64,000 nucleotides of DNA. Origin: an uncultured PS1 clade bacterium. Lineage in GTDB: Bacteria; Pseudomonadota; Alphaproteobacteria; RS24. Shown piece after piece: positions 34,607 to 52,320 of the stretch. A model generated the notes under the pieces. The model was not told the DNA's origin. It made no database searches and saw only the letters and a list, made by a program, of their open reading frames with translations. The stretch is taken from positions 1 through 64,000 of the forward strand of contig CACNWB010000008.1 in assembly GCA_902624095.1 (NCBI GenBank). The letters run 5' to 3'. Each line of letters opens with the position of its first letter. The first letter of the stretch is position 1. A program made the translations under genes and the position numbers.

Positions 34607-37135
34607 TTAGTGGACGTCAAACCCGTGATAACCGCTTTGGGCAATTTGGTCACATATCTCGCGATACACGCCTACGCCGCCGACATAAGCCAGAAATGCG
34701 CGCGGCTTGCCAGGCACATTAGCCCCGACATACCAACTGTCAGCCTGCGGGTACAAAGTCATGTCTGCCATTTGAGAGGTATGCTCCGCCCATTCAATCT
34801 CAGCGGATCTTTCTGGTTCAATCCGGGTTTTTCCGTTGCTGTTCATCCAGCCGATACAATCGGCAATCCAGTCAACATGTTGTTCAATGGAAACCATCAT
34901 ATTGCTGAGAACGGATGGGCTGGAAGGCCCATTAATGGTGAACAGATTCGGGAACCCGCTTACCCCGATGCCCAGATAAGATTGTGGGCCATCAACCCAA
35001 GAATCAATCAAACGACGTCCCTTGGAGCCCCTAATATCTACCCGCAGCAAAGGGCCTGTCATAGCATCGAACCCTGTAGCAAAAATTATGGCATCAAATT
35101 CGCGCTCAGTGTCGGAAGTTTTAATTCCTTTTTCCGTGATCGTATCGATCGGCGTACGACGCAAGTTTACCAGAGATACATTATCTCGATTGTAGGTTTC
35201 GTAGTAGTTTGTATCGAGACAAGGCCGTTTGGTCCCATAAGGATGAGTATTTGGCAACAAATCTTCTCGTGTTTGTTCATCTTCTACGATACCACGAATT
35301 CGGTCGCGAATAAATTCCTGCGCGGCCTCATTAGCTTTTTCATCTGTCAGAATGTCCCCAAAAGCAAAGAAGAAGCTAGGTAAAAGTCCAGTTTCCCAAC
35401 CCGTATTAAAACGTTTCTCTCGCTCTTCGGCCGTGGCCTCCATAGCTCGATCTAGCTGAGGTTCCGGACTTATGGCTCCCAAGCGAGATTTGCGGCATTC
35501 GGCGCGGTAATCAGGATAATTGCTTTTGACAGCGTCGACTTCAGAATTCGACAAAGTCCGATTAAGAGCTGGCGTTGAGAAATTTGCCGTACGTTGGAAA
35601 ACCACAAGTTCCTCAGCCTGCTCAGCAACTATTGGAATTGTCTGAATACCTGACGATCCTGTGCCGATAACAGCAACTTTCTTGCCGCTAAAATCGACAA
35701 TATCATGCGGCCATGAGCCAGTATTATAGGTCTCGCCTTTAAAATTATCATAGCCAGGAATGTCTGGTTTCTTCGATGCTGAAAGCACACCGGAAGCCAT
35801 GATCAAATAGCGCGCGCGCACCGAATCACCATTTTCTAAAGTCACCAACCACTCGTTCGTATCATCGTCAAAATGCGCGCTGGCTACTTTCGCTTCAAAT
35901 TGAATGTCCTTTCGCAGATCAAAACGATCCGCGACGTGATTTGCATACTTCAAGAGCTCAGGTTGAGTCGCATGCTTTTCAGACCAAACCCAATCTTGCT
36001 CCAGCTCTTCAGAGAAGGAGTACGAATATGCAACGCTCTCAATATCTACGCGTGCTCCAGGATAACGGTTCCAATACCAAGTTCCGCCAACGCCCGTACC
36101 AGCTTCGAAAACACGAACATTTAACCCTTGTTCCCTAAGCTTGTGCAACTGGTACATGCCTGAGAAGCCAGCACCAACAATTACCGCATCAAACTCCTCC
36201 AAAGGGTTGAAGTGTTTCTCAATTTGAGAATTCATCCAATCAATCGCCTCAAACCCAACTGGCAGAACTTCGGCCAGTGCAATGAAGGCATGAATCTGAC
36301 GCTTAAAGTCCTTATAAATGACTTTATGACCGGCCTCTTCCAATTTCTTGGCGTAAGCTTCGCCCTCTTCTCTTAAAAGATCATATTCCGCAGTCATTAC
36401 AATGGTGGGCGCCAGACCATCAAGTTTTGCCAGATCATCAGCCAATAGAGGAGAGGCCTCTACATCGCAAAACTGATCCTCATTTGCATAGAGCGTCCAG
36501 AAGTGTTTCATCATTTTGGTTGTCAAGAAGAGCTCGCGGGAATCATCTTTCCAGCCGGCAGAGTCCATCCGGCCGTCTGTTACAGGATACATTAAAATTT
36601 GAAGGTCTACTTTTGGACCGTTTTCACGTGCGGACTTTTGCGCGACCACGGCCGAAAGATTACCCCCAGCGCTGTCTCCGCAAACAATAATAGGAAGTCT
36701 AGCTCCCGCTAATTTTTCAATATTCTCATCCACCCAGTTTAGGGCTGTATAGCAATCATTCACTGGTATAGGGAATTTGTGTTCGGGAGCCTTTCGGTAA
36801 TTAACGAGTACAACAACCGCGTTACAACGTTGGGCGATATGTCGTCCCAAACCATCATAATCATCTATATTCCCGAAAACCCAGCCTCCACCGTGATAGT
36901 ACACAATAACGGAGTTAGCGTTACCGACCGGTTTCAATACACGGCAGTCTATAGACCCACCGTCGACAGGCACTGAGACAGTATCGGAGGAAATAGATGC
37001 CGGCCCAGCTGGCAAACCCTTTACAATTTCGGAATAGGCTACGCGAGATTCCTCAGGCGACAAGGAATCCAGTGTTGGGCCGTCGTCGATAGCCATGTTT
37101 GCTAGCAAGGCCGTGGTTGCAAAATCGAAATTCAT
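34607..37135 (-). CDS. Fusion of HSL-type esterase and Baeyer-Villiger monooxygenase
   Basis: An 842-residue two-domain enzyme. Residues 1-310: an alpha/beta hydrolase of the hormone-sensitive-lipase class with HGGG (81-84), GDSAG (nucleophile Ser155), Asp252 and His282. Residues 315-842: a flavin monooxygenase with the FAD loop GAGFSG (321-326) and the NADPH loop GTGSSG (491-496). The BVMO fingerprint FxGxxxHxxxWP appears as F465-K-G467-ETY-N471-TGS-W475-P476, with Asn for His. The logical chain is ketone to ester, then hydrolysis to alcohol plus acid. A strong GGGAGG site precedes the ATG. Confidence 0.92.
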   Translation of the reverse strand: MNFDFATTALLANMAIDDGPTLDSLSPEESRVAYSEIVKGLPAGPASISSDTVSVPVDGGSIDCRVLKPVGNANSVIVYYHGGGWVFGNIDDYDGLGRHIAQRCNAVVVLVNYRKAPEHKFPIPVNDCYTALNWVDENIEKLAGARLPIIVCGDSAGGNLSAVVAQKSARENGPKVDLQILMYPVTDGRMDSAGWKDDSRELFLTTKMMKHFWTLYANEDQFCDVEASPLLADDLAKLDGLAPTIVMTAEYDLLREEGEAYAKKLEEAGHKVIYKDFKRQIHAFIALAEVLPVGFEAIDWMNSQIEKHFNPLEEFDAVIVGAGFSGMYQLHKLREQGLNVRVFEAGTGVGGTWYWNRYPGARVDIESVAYSYSFSEELEQDWVWSEKHATQPELLKYANHVADRFDLRKDIQFEAKVASAHFDDDTNEWLVTLENGDSVRARYLIMASGVLSASKKPDIPGYDNFKGETYNTGSWPHDIVDFSGKKVAVIGTGSSGIQTIPIVAEQAEELVVFQRTANFSTPALNRTLSNSEVDAVKSNYPDYRAECRKSRLGAISPEPQLDRAMEATAEEREKRFNTGWETGLLPSFFFAFGDILTDEKANEAAQEFIRDRIRGIVEDEQTREDLLPNTHPYGTKRPCLDTNYYETYNRDNVSLVNLRRTPIDTITEKGIKTSDTEREFDAIIFATGFDAMTGPLLRVDIRGSKGRRLIDSWVDGPQSYLGIGVSGFPNLFTINGPSSPSVLSNMMVSIEQHVDWIADCIGWMNSNGKTRIEPERSAEIEWAEHTSQMADMTLYPQADSWYVGANVPGKPRAFLAYVGGVGVYREICDQIAQSGYHGFDVH

Positions 37136-40764: not shown

Positions 40765-41334
40765 TTAATTCGCCGCGCCTTCAACGGCCGACAGGCGGAT
40801 ATCCAATTCATCGAAACTGAAATCGACAACCTCATCAACCAATATGCGGTAGCCCGTATCGGTATATTCGGTTGCCGCGCCCGTAGTGCTCAATTGCCCC
40901 TGCACGATAACTGGTTCCCAATAGGTGCGCATGCGAGTCGGCTCCTTGAGTTTGATGAAGATGGTCTGGTTGACGGGCGGCGGGGGCACATGAATGCACT
41001 GGCCGGCGCTGGGCACCAGCAAAAATTCGAAAACATCCGCACCCTCATAAACAAGCGGCACCATATAGCCGGGCAATACAACGGCGACCTCGTTCAGCTC
41101 AGGACGAATTTTGCGCTCGGCATCCAGAATTTTCTGCTGAAAATCCGGGTCAGCCCAATCAGACGCGCTCATGCCCTCAAGCGGAATAAAATCGTAAAGG
41201 CCTGCCGGCATGAGATGGGCCCAATCGGTCACATAAGTCGTTGGCAAAGCGGTCTCTGCACGCGCGGCCATTGCCCCTAGAGGACTAGCAAAAAGCAAAA
41301 AACACAGCACAAAGCCCGTCAGAGAATGCCGCAT
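40765..41334 (-). CDS. DUF3299 secreted protein of an ABC system
   Basis: About 190 residues with a Sec signal (GFVLCFLLFASPLGAMAARAE) and the DUF3299 body: FIPLEGM near the start, then EVAVVLPGYMVPLVYEGADVFEFLLVPSAGQCIHVPPPPVNQTIFI, and YRILVDEVV. The conserved C-H-PPPP motif in the middle could bind a metal. The ATG shares one base with the permease stop (TGATG), so it is coupled to the ABC permease and likely works with it in the periplasm. The open frame upstream to 41556 is just overlap with the permease gene. Confidence 0.82.
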   Translation of the reverse strand: MRHSLTGFVLCFLLFASPLGAMAARAETALPTTYVTDWAHLMPAGLYDFIPLEGMSASDWADPDFQQKILDAERKIRPELNEVAVVLPGYMVPLVYEGADVFEFLLVPSAGQCIHVPPPPVNQTIFIKLKEPTRMRTYWEPVIVQGQLSTTGAATEYTDTGYRILVDEVVDFSFDELDIRLSAVEGAAN

Positions 41335-42707
41335 CAGCGTTCCACCATGATGCCATCCTGCACCGTGCGCCGATAAAGGCGCAAAGCCGGCACGAGACCA
41401 GCGACCAGTGCGGCGGGGATGATATAGGCGACGATGACCATTTCCTGCCAGCCGGGCAGCATTGTAGTTGCCACAAGACCGATGGTCTGGGTGAGCCATT
41501 GCTGGGCCAAGGCACTGACCCCGACGGCAAGCCCCAGCCCCATCACTGACGCACAAATGGCGAGAAACAGGGCTTCGGCGAGAATAAGCCCGACCAGCGT
41601 AGACGGCGATGCACCCAAGGCGCGCAAAATAGCCATTTCGCGACGCCGGCTATCGGTGCTGAGCACTGTCATGGCGGTCATTGCCAACAATACCAGCGCG
41701 ATGACCAAGAGGCTAACAGCGCGGAACCCGCGATCTGCGACGCCGATTATTTGCCAGATTTGCGCCAGAGTCACGCCGGGTATCACAGCCGTGAGGGGCT
41801 CAGATTCATAATCGGCTATATTGCGCTGCACGCGCACAACATTGCGCCGTTCTGTCAGGCCAACAAAAAAGCCGTCCAGCGCATCAAGACCTCCTGCATG
41901 GGCGTGGTCGTTATGCTCTTCCCCGTGGTGTTCATCTTCGTGATGCTCCTCCGCGTGATGCTCCTCCTCGTGGTGTTCATCTTCGTGATGATGCTCATCC
42001 TCATGCGCTTCTTTCGGTTTTTCCACCTGCTCGGGCGACAATTCCATAAGCTGCTGACCATTGCGCCAGCCCCGGTGAATGGCTTCAATCGCCTCGACCG
42101 ACACAAGCACAGTGCGGTCGAACGGTGTGCCCGTGCGCGCCAGAACCCCATGCACCCGAAAAGGCAAATCATCATGCGCCGCGCCATAATCGCCCAGCCC
42201 ATGCTGTAGAACAATTTTGTCGCCGGGCATATAGCCCAGCGCTTCGGCAACATCAGCACCCACCACGGCTTCCAAAATCTGTTCAAACGCGCCGCCGGCC
42301 GCGAACAAAGCGCCGCTCGACGGCGAGGGTATAACACGCTCGAAAAACTCAGGAGAAGTTCCCAACACCCGAAATCCGCGATGACTGTCGCCCAGTGCCA
42401 GCGGCACCACCCACGCGACCTCGGGCATGCCAGCCACCGCCGCCACTGTTTCATCCGAGACAAGATTGCCGCTGGCCCCTAGCCCAAACACCGTATTGAG
42501 CAGAATTTGAACATCCGAGCCGCGCGCGGCGACCACCAGATCAACGCCCGAAATGCTATTTTCAAAACTTGCCCGTGTCAGACGTTGGACGTTTTGTACG
42601 CCGACATAAAGCGCTACGGCACATGCCAGTGTAACAACAATCAAGCCAAGGCTGAAGGCTCTGTTGGCAAGCGACCCGCGCAACAATGTCAGGATTTGTG
42701 CATTCAT
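41334..42707 (-). CDS. FtsX/MacB-type ABC transporter permease with His-rich loop
   Basis: A 457-residue permease: one helix at the N terminus (RAFSLGLIVVTLACAVALYVG), a large periplasmic MacB-like domain, then three C-terminal helices (GFRAVSLLVIALVLLAMTAMTVL, ALFLAICASVMGLGLAVG, MVIVAYIIPAALVAGLVPALRLY). Inserted in the periplasmic part is a loop, residues 231-270, holding 15 His among Glu and Asp, which should bind Zn, Ni or Cu. It is coupled to the LolD-like ATPase (4-base overlap) and the DUF3299 gene. I infer export or sensing of a metal or metal-bound cargo. Confidence 0.88.
   Translation of the reverse strand: MNAQILTLLRGSLANRAFSLGLIVVTLACAVALYVGVQNVQRLTRASFENSISGVDLVVAARGSDVQILLNTVFGLGASGNLVSDETVAAVAGMPEVAWVVPLALGDSHRGFRVLGTSPEFFERVIPSPSSGALFAAGGAFEQILEAVVGADVAEALGYMPGDKIVLQHGLGDYGAAHDDLPFRVHGVLARTGTPFDRTVLVSVEAIEAIHRGWRNGQQLMELSPEQVEKPKEAHEDEHHHEDEHHEEEHHAEEHHEDEHHGEEHNDHAHAGGLDALDGFFVGLTERRNVVRVQRNIADYESEPLTAVIPGVTLAQIWQIIGVADRGFRAVSLLVIALVLLAMTAMTVLSTDSRRREMAILRALGASPSTLVGLILAEALFLAICASVMGLGLAVGVSALAQQWLTQTIGLVATTMLPGWQEMVIVAYIIPAALVAGLVPALRLYRRTVQDGIMVER
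41889..42020 (-). repeat. Imperfect tandem repeats encoding the His-rich loop
   Basis: Within the permease gene, short units of about 15 bases repeat with small changes and encode HHEDE, HHEEE, HHAEE and HHEDE in turn, followed by EEHNDHAHAGG. The repeat explains the cluster of 15 His in 36 residues. Such arrays grow and shrink by slippage, so the number of units may vary between strains. Confidence 0.8.
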
Positions 42708-43405
42708 TCTCGCGCCCCTCCCGTTACCGGCTCTTTCGTAAGGTCCTCCATCTTAATCACGCGGTCGAAGCGCGGGGCAAGGCGGGCATCATGGCTGACC
42801 ACCAGCAACACCTGTCGTTGTGAGTCGAGCCCGGCAATTAACAAGTCAAAAAACTTTTCCGTATTGGCATCATCCAATGCTGAACTGGGCTCATCGGCCA
42901 GCACCAAATCCGGCGCGCCGACCAATGCGCGGGCGGCAGCCACACGCTGTTGTTGACCAAGACTGAGCAACCGGGCCGGTTGTTCGCCAAGTGCCCCCGC
43001 ATCTAAATCAAGCCGCGTCATGAAATCACTAATGATATCGCCCAAACTCGCCTTCAGGCGCGCGCGGCGTTGCGGGGCAAAGGCCAGACCCAGCGCAATA
43101 TTTTCGCGCACGCTCAGCCACGGTATTAGATTGAGCGTCTGATAGATAAAGCCGATATGCGTGCCCCGAAACCTGTCCATACGCGCCCCTGAAAACTGCG
43201 ACATGTCCTGTCCCGCAAGCGCAACACGCCCATGGTCGGCTACCAGAACACCAGCCAAGAGGCTAAGAAAGGTTGATTTGCCGCTGCCCGATGGCCCCAA
43301 CAAAAGACAGGTTGTACCCGCTTCCAATGTCAGCGACGGCACGCGCAGGTTAAACCCGCCAGTACTCGCATAACTGAATTGCAAATTGTCAATCTGAAGT
43401 GTCAT
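42704..43405 (-). CDS. LolD/MacB-like ABC transporter ATP-binding protein
   Basis: A 233-residue ATPase: Walker A GPSGSGKS, Q-loop YQTLNLIPWLSVREN, signature LSLGQQQR, Walker B LVLADEPSS with the catalytic Glu, and a switch His in VVSHD. It matches the class that powers MacB/FtsX-type permeases. The stop overlaps the permease start by 4 bases (42704-42707). The group ATPase - permease - DUF3299 is one operon, read leftwards. Confidence 0.92.
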   Translation of the reverse strand: MTLQIDNLQFSYASTGGFNLRVPSLTLEAGTTCLLLGPSGSGKSTFLSLLAGVLVADHGRVALAGQDMSQFSGARMDRFRGTHIGFIYQTLNLIPWLSVRENIALGLAFAPQRRARLKASLGDIISDFMTRLDLDAGALGEQPARLLSLGQQQRVAAARALVGAPDLVLADEPSSALDDANTEKFFDLLIAGLDSQRQVLLVVSHDARLAPRFDRVIKMEDLTKEPVTGGARE

Positions 43406-43439
43406 CAGTATTTTGTCAGCAGCTCAAAATTGTTGATTT

Positions 43440-43453
43440 TGATAAAGTTATCA
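43440..43453. promoter_or_regulatory. Palindrome, possible operator of the ABC operon
   Basis: The perfect palindrome TGATAAAGTTATCA (6-2-6) lies between the divergent ATPase gene (start 43405) and the DUF4396 gene (start 43510). Its place and symmetry suit a dimeric regulator, perhaps a metal-responsive one given the His-rich permease. No known box was matched with confidence. Confidence 0.35.
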
Positions 43454-43509: not shown

Positions 43510-43956
43510 GTGGAACAGATATTATTAAAGCCGAAGTTTACATGGACGTGTAAACACACTTGGCAGCAGGCCATGCGCAATACAGGCTGGTGTTTGGCCG
43601 GATGCGCAATCGGTGATTTGGGAACCATCTATTACTTTCAGGTGACGGGCATAGGCTGGCCGGTTTGGGCGATTATGAGCCTAGCCATTGTCAACGGGCT
43701 GATCACCTCCATCGCACTGGAAACAATCATCCTGACGCGGCAAATGGCTTTTCGCGCTGCGTTTAGAACGGCGATTGGCATGTCGATGATTTCCATGGTT
43801 TCAATGGAAGCGGCAATGAACCTGGTCGACGTCGTTCTAACCGGCGGAGCTGTGCTCACCTGGTGGGTTGTCCCGCTCATGCTCATTGCCGGCTATATCA
43901 CCCCGTTGCCTTATAATTATTGGCGTCTTAAGGCGCATGGCAAAGCCTGCCACTAG
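43510..43956 (+). CDS. DUF4396-like membrane protein
   Basis: A 148-residue protein with a GTG start, four hydrophobic helices (e.g. VWAIMSLAIVNGLITSIALE, TAIGMSMISMVSMEAAMNLV, WWVVPLMLIAGYITPLPYNYW) and a Met-rich third helix. The arrangement fits DUF4396. Function is unknown; members are often near metal or copper genes. It is divergent from the ABC operon with 104 bases between. A link to metal handling is only suggested by context. Confidence 0.68.
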   Translation: MEQILLKPKFTWTCKHTWQQAMRNTGWCLAGCAIGDLGTIYYFQVTGIGWPVWAIMSLAIVNGLITSIALETIILTRQMAFRAAFRTAIGMSMISMVSMEAAMNLVDVVLTGGAVLTWWVVPLMLIAGYITPLPYNYWRLKAHGKACH

Positions 43957-51358: not shown

Positions 51359-51372
51359 AGTAATATTTGAAC

Positions 51373-52320
51373 ATGAGCATAGCCATGACCATTGCCCCCA
51401 CCCCGCTTACGATCATCTCAGGCTTTTTGGGGGCCGGCAAAACCAGCTTGCTCAATCATTTGCTCCACCATGCAGGTGGACGGCGCATTACGGCATTAGT
51501 AAACGATTTCGGTGCACTTAATATCGACAGCGAGCTTATTGCAGCCGAGCACGGCGGACAGATATCGCTGGCTAACGGATGCGTGTGCTGTTCAATCAGC
51601 GATGATTTAGGTGTGGCAATGGCCGACGCCCTCAACCGTGCACCCCGCCCTGACCATATTGTTATAGAAGCAAGCGGCGTGGCAGATCCGGCGCGCATAG
51701 CACTTTACGCTCAAGTTGATAGGGAATTGCGTCTTGACGGAATTGTGACAGTGATCGACGCTACCGCTTATGAGGCCCATGCGAGTGACCCGCATATTGG
51801 TGACACTTATGCCCGCCAAATGGCAGCGGCGGATTTGTTTCTCGTAACCAAATCGGATCTGGCAGACGGTACGCAAATACAAACCATCACACGAACGCTC
51901 GCAAAGACCCGATCAGGCACACCGGTATTGCAAGCTATAAATGGCGCGATTGAAACCGACATTATATTAGGAGTGGGGCGCGCAGACGACGCCCCACTGG
52001 CACATAAACAAAGGCATGCAACCGATCACGGCTTCCGGCAATGGTCGGGACATGTGGCGCCCGCAACCGACCGGCACAAGCTGGCCGAGAAATTGCGCGC
52101 CCTGTCACCGCATATTATTCGCGCCAAAGGCATCTTTTCCGATGCAGAAGGCGCTTACGCCATTCATTATGCCGGCCAGCGCATATCTTTTGAGCCACAT
52201 GCAGGGCGCGCCAGCGGGCATCTTGTCGTTATCGGCAGGCCGGAACTGCCGGCGCCAACATTTCTGTCAGCGTATTTTGACCAATCAGGTGAACAAAGCA
52301 GTAATCGGGGCCACGCCTGA
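51373..52320 (+). CDS. CobW/COG0523-type G3E GTPase (metal chaperone)
   Basis: About 315 residues from the ATG at 51373. The P-loop is GFLGAGKT, the metal-binding CxCC motif is in NGCVCCSIS, and VIEASGVADP and TKSDL are the further GTPase motifs. Such proteins deliver Zn, Co or other metals to client enzymes. A small CobW C-terminal domain is present. The next gene overlaps the stop (TGATG). The client could be the amidohydrolase upstream or the haem protein downstream; this is inference. Confidence 0.9.
   Translation: MSIAMTIAPTPLTIISGFLGAGKTSLLNHLLHHAGGRRITALVNDFGALNIDSELIAAEHGGQISLANGCVCCSISDDLGVAMADALNRAPRPDHIVIEASGVADPARIALYAQVDRELRLDGIVTVIDATAYEAHASDPHIGDTYARQMAAADLFLVTKSDLADGTQIQTITRTLAKTRSGTPVLQAINGAIETDIILGVGRADDAPLAHKQRHATDHGFRQWSGHVAPATDRHKLAEKLRALSPHIIRAKGIFSDAEGAYAIHYAGQRISFEPHAGRASGHLVVIGRPELPAPTFLSAYFDQSGEQSSNRGHA

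Follow-up and report, generated by a model that had tools for sequence, protein, structure and literature searches.

A Zrg-type ABC operon without ZrgA, and with a histidine-rich loop in its permease, in a PS1 clade alphaproteobacterium

The operon and its family

The window analysed is a stretch of 64,000 nucleotides from an uncultured PS1 clade bacterium (Alphaproteobacteria; assembly GCA_902624095.1, contig CACNWB010000008.1). Its minus strand encodes a compact three-gene operon, with a membrane protein gene divergent from it:

40765-41334, minus strand: secreted DUF3299 protein, ZrgE/PA4066 type, with the motif GQCIHVPPPPVNQ (PF11736, 1e-29)
41334-42707, minus strand: permease of the ZrgB/PA4065 type, MacB/LolE fold, 457 aa (PF12704 MacB_PCD and PF02687 FtsX)
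41895-42005, minus strand: His-rich periplasmic loop of the permease, residues ~235-271
41908-41990, minus strand: tandem repeat, 5.5 copies of a 15-bp unit, coding for the His-rich loop
42075-42077, minus strand: codon of the invariant His211, at the base of the loop
42704-43405, minus strand: ATPase of the ZrgC/PA4064 type (LolD/MacB-like ATP-binding subunit), 233 aa (PF00005, 8.6e-28)
43440-43453, no strand assigned: palindrome TGATAAAGTTATCA in the divergent promoter, a possible operator of some regulator
43510-43956, plus strand: DUF4396 membrane protein (PF14342, 9.2e-39)

As described in an earlier note made from the DNA alone, the ATPase and permease genes overlap by four bases (ATGA, 42704-42707) and the permease and DUF3299 genes by one (TGATG at 41334). 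The interval given in that note ends at 43453, which is the end of the palindrome; the ATPase gene starts at 43405. The DUF3299 protein has a signal-peptide-like N-terminus. A DUF4396 gene also lies beside the operon in the congener L014 (8751-9197). Viral contigs yielded no relative. Elsewhere in the window, positions 34607-37135 encode an 842-aa fusion of an alpha/beta hydrolase and a FAD monooxygenase (Baeyer-Villiger-like).

Homology and gene order place the operon in the Zrg module (ZrgABCDE / PA4063-PA4066), which is Zur-regulated in Vibrio and Pseudomonas (PMC9820375, PMC9817125, PMC11481552, PMC8561739). The DUF3299 protein matches the structure of PA4066 (PDB 4hsp, 1.5e-19), in which the counterpart of the motif GQCIHVPPPPVNQ is GACIHVPPPPSNQ. 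The Cys-His-Pro motif singled out in the earlier note is thus present, but it is a family motif common to PA4066 and not special to this protein. The permease shares 37-43% identity with those of annotated Rhodobacterales operons (on plasmids), where the permease gene lies between the ATPase and DUF3299 genes and a DUF2796 gene comes first in several; the ATPase gene of the window holds the same position as that of annotated zrg operons. DUF2796 (PF10986), which Pfam now lists under the name ZrgA, matches the structures of PA4063 and of another zinc-binding protein (8ezw). Two marks of the Zrg module are found in the window, a LolD/MacB-like ATPase beside a split MacB-fold permease and a DUF3299 (ZrgE/PA4066) gene in the same operon; the permease is typed as ZrgB/PA4065 by gene order and by the described architecture of those proteins. 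The marks of MacAB-TolC are absent, the ATPase and permease being encoded by split genes and no MacA adaptor occurring in the window operon.

The 4hsp match and the Zrg papers rule out an uncharacterised system outside known families, and the statement that known systems do not cover the operon does not hold. The zinc system ZepA (PMC10957091) was also considered and is unrelated to the window operon. DUF3299 is often paired with such a permease, at 37 of 45 strong alphaproteobacterial ORFs, but the pairing, which had been put forward for checking as a constant one, is not universal. Three loci (L257, L063 and L187) have adjacent zrgA and DUF3299 genes and no permease in the fetched stretch. 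Distant ATPase-permease pairs occur without DUF3299 beside alkaline phosphatase genes on Paracoccus, Deinococcus and Ensifer plasmids (L026, L027, L028), and the Paracoccus pair includes a His-rich stretch.

The permease loop and the absence of ZrgA

Within its periplasmic domain, the permease contains 15 His between residues 235 and 270, the best 36-residue stretch, and both this count and the tandem-repeat origin noticed earlier were confirmed. In an AlphaFold2 model built from 45 sequences (mean pLDDT 87), residues 244-272 fall below a pLDDT of 50 and are probably disordered; the best PDB folds for the model are LolE and MacB. Sequence and model together describe a His/Asp/Glu repeat, predicted to be disordered, that is inserted in the periplasmic domain next to His211. 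H169 and H211 are present in all 122 permeases of our first set; H178 is missing from just one of them and H109 from very few. H169, H178 and H211 recur in 36 of 36 permeases of a replication set. His109, His169, His178 and His211 could form a core metal site. The earlier note had looked to close orthologues for a His-poor loop as evidence against its reading; in the congeners and a genome of the same family 9-13 His are retained, and this check does not refute it. His-poor loops are found among more distant relatives, where a His-rich ZrgA is encoded as a protein of its own.

Lacking from the operons of the window, of the congeners L014 and L015 and of the same-family L016 is zrgA (DUF2796, PF10986). 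A search for ZrgA elsewhere in the window's lineage likewise found none. Genome-wide, it was not detected in G000, G002, G003, G019, G216, G035, G759, G637 or G568, and positive controls were detected. Completeness is 73-74% for G000 and G003 (73% for the window assembly), 85% for G002 and 90% for G019. Because ZrgA is found neither in the operon, nor in this 73% complete assembly, nor in the congeners, we describe the operon as a ZrgA-less variant and not as a full ZrgABCDE system.

We compared loop type with the presence of zrgA in 122 permeases, 112 of which have callable neighbourhoods. Where zrgA is present (n=82), the linker from His211 to Gly283 has a length of 32-43 aa and contains 0-1 His, and no loop is His-rich; where it is absent (n=30), 14 permeases have a linker of 48-116 aa with 5-18 His. 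The difference (0/82 vs 14/30) gives a Fisher value of 6e-10, for rows that are phylogenetically related and with a His threshold set after looking at this set. The replication, drawn after the hypothesis as a phylum-wide sample of DUF3299 genomes (60 regions, same measurement), gave His-rich loops in 0/33 permeases with zrgA (0-1 His) vs 3/3 without (1.4e-4), zrgA being scored within the fetched stretch of ~13 kb (in 27 of the 33 it lies within 2 kb, in the rest mostly 2-5 kb away). The three zrgA-less permeases have 11, 34 and 44 His in the loop, and no ZrgA was found in their genomes, which are listed as 100% complete. Pooled over the 148 permeases with readable neighbourhoods, a nearby zrgA goes with a His-poor loop (0-1 His) in 115/115 cases, and permeases without zrgA have a His-rich loop (5-44 His) in 17/33, so that about half of the zrgA-less permeases have none.

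By parsimony the loop was gained about eight times, always on zrgA-absent branches, with a probability by branch length of ~0.001; this estimate is post hoc, a weaker substitute for a pairs test, and relies on a quick tree in which many branches are weak. The independent-pairs test yielded 0-2 informative pairs on the tree and was not significant. Where zrgA is not adjacent, at least 3 His (a post hoc cut-off) are found in 18/20 ZrgA-free genomes vs 3/12 with ZrgA elsewhere. In three His-loop genomes a ZrgA is encoded elsewhere, in one case within a canonical operon distinct from the loop-type one.

Two permeases from another class of the same phylum (L248 and L249) have loops of 141 and 145 aa with 34 and 44 His. 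A permease fragment at 1-831 of L086 (G216), whose gene is cut by the contig end, has 13 His in 40 residues at a different loop, on the N-terminal side of the position that corresponds to residue 183; this may be a second site of insertion.

Zinc genes and the promoter

The metal link suggested in the earlier note gains support by way of relatives, whose operons lie beside zur, zigA, DUF1826 or ZnuA-like genes, and by way of the Zur-regulated family. In a genome of the window's family (G019, locus L016), the order is zur, DUF1826, a Zur-box-like site, zigA and the operon. The Zur-box-like palindrome is CGTTATATTATAACA; across seven related genomes no other site has one mismatch or fewer. The zigA product scores above the cut-off of the NCBIfam ZigA model. 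The operon of L022 adjoins a gene for a Zur-like regulator; genes for a ZnuA-like protein, an ABC-3 permease and DUF3299 occur in the L086 locus; and L216 has a DUF1826 gene and a MerC-like gene nearby. At the 24 loci that lack both the loop and zrgA, no zur, zigA, DUF1826 or ZnuA-like neighbour is present. In family f1, to which the window belongs, eight genomes (G000-G004, G006, G007 and G019, two of which are 99-100% complete) were searched for ZnuA (PF01297), and none has a match above cut-off.

No Zur box was matched in the window and none lies at the operon in the window's genus, where a third Fur-family gene was also not found. The promoter palindrome TGATAAAGTTATCA reported earlier was confirmed and is rare: 0.03 copies would be expected in the window, and the assembly contains no second exact copy. 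It was rejected as a Zur box, as it does not match one and the congener L014 lacks it at the corresponding divergent promoter. At 51367-52320 the window encodes a COG0523 GTPase (under the ZigA cut-off), followed by cytochrome b561, with cytochrome c' on the other strand.

Possible role of the loop and comparison with known systems

We consider it probable, with some reserve, that the operon is a ZrgA-less Zrg variant in which a metal-capture segment built into the permease loop does part of the work of ZrgA. The loop would act as a tethered segment that gathers Zn2+, or an ion like it, at the permease, most likely taking over part of ZrgA's work, and the conserved His site, together with ATP-driven movement of the periplasmic domain, may then pass the metal on. 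V. cholerae needs ZrgA but can do without the His-rich loop of this protein (PMC9820375). A His loop may therefore be insufficient by itself to stand in for ZrgA; the permease loop may serve capture, and something else may do the essential work of ZrgA. We propose more tentatively, as a possibility somewhat short of an even chance, that MacB-fold Zrg permeases repeatedly took over the role of their metal-binding partner, the loss of ZrgA being compensated for by a His-rich loop grown by the permease, so that a mechanotransmission ABC transporter came to carry a tethered segment of its own for metal binding.

It is rather unlikely, though a serious alternative, that the operon encodes a MacB-like exporter of a metal-chelator complex or of excess metal, in which the loop would sense or gate metal and not capture it for uptake. 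The permease has the MacB/LolE fold; a PA4065 mutant accumulates cobalt and pyochelin, and pyochelin-cobalt export has been proposed for PA4064/PA4065 (PMC11481552). An HlyD-like (biotinyl-lipoyl) adaptor gene lies directly upstream of the ATPase gene in the Rhodobacterales loop-type operons L011, L025 and L135, but is absent from the window operon, L014 and L016. Vibrio Zrg contributes to zinc acquisition (PMC9820375, PMC9817125), and capture would account no less well for a His loop outside the cytoplasm.

A metal other than zinc (copper, nickel or cobalt) is unlikely to be the one handled by the loop-type system. His-rich segments bind several metals, the window genus has no Zur box, a MerC-like gene lies beside L216, and L248 adjoins an RND efflux pump that is CusA-like by sequence, so that other metals are possible. 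The zur, zigA, DUF1826 and ZnuA-like neighbours at other loop-type operons, and Zur regulation of the known family, argue for zinc.

We give little credence to a neutral origin of the loop, by repeat slippage and low-complexity expansion in a tolerant linker, with no role in metal binding. Slippage would agree with the 15-bp repeat and with copy number that differs between close relatives (the loop of the congener L015 is shorter by 15 aa, or three 5-residue units), as well as with the disorder in the model and the variable linker length. Against it are the composition of His with Asp/Glu across separate gains, the retention of 9-13 His in the congeners and the same-family genome, and the lack of any His-rich loop in the 115 operons with adjacent zrgA. 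The Lol-like lipoprotein or envelope-repair system suggested in the earlier note is very improbable and largely excluded by membership of the Zrg module: its support does not go beyond the fold common to LolE and MacB, scores fall far under the equivalog cut-offs (LolD, 145.7 vs 307.75 bits; lolCE, 23.9 vs 362.45 bits), gene order and families match Zrg, and relatives have zinc-gene neighbours.

The ZrgA-less set bears on the role of ZrgA and on the question whether zinc import or the export of metal-chelator complexes is the function of Zrg/PA4063-PA4066 systems. Systems of this kind with a His segment borne by the permease point to the site of metal handling and offer single-protein test constructs. 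At the level of the operon, the mutual exclusion of His-rich loop and zrgA amounts to a simple rule, open to checking against any collection of genomes; we found no description of it in the open-licence papers searched.

MacB and LolCDE (type VII ABC systems) share the permease fold and ATPase type with the window operon, which differs in its DUF3299 partner and His-rich loop, in falling short of the equivalog models and in having no MacA in the operon. The UreG His stretch in genomes lacking UreE (PMC2770081) is a similar case of a His-rich segment on a partner when the separate metal-binding protein is missing, an analogy only, as the proteins are unrelated and the metal is nickel. P. aeruginosa PA4064, PA4065 and PA4066 (PMC11481552, PMC8561739) all have counterparts in the window, the DUF3299 protein being the one that matches a solved structure; PA4063 (ZrgA), which carries His-rich loops, has none. 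Like ZrgABCDE of Vibrio cholerae and V. parahaemolyticus (PMC9820375, PMC9817125), the window operon combines an ATPase, a MacB-like permease with a large periplasmic domain, ZrgE (DUF3299) and a His-rich element, but zrgA and zrgD are missing, no Zur box was found in the window, and the His-rich element is in the permease. The Zrg module itself is thus known, and what is unusual here is that ZrgA is missing and a His-rich loop lies within the permease.
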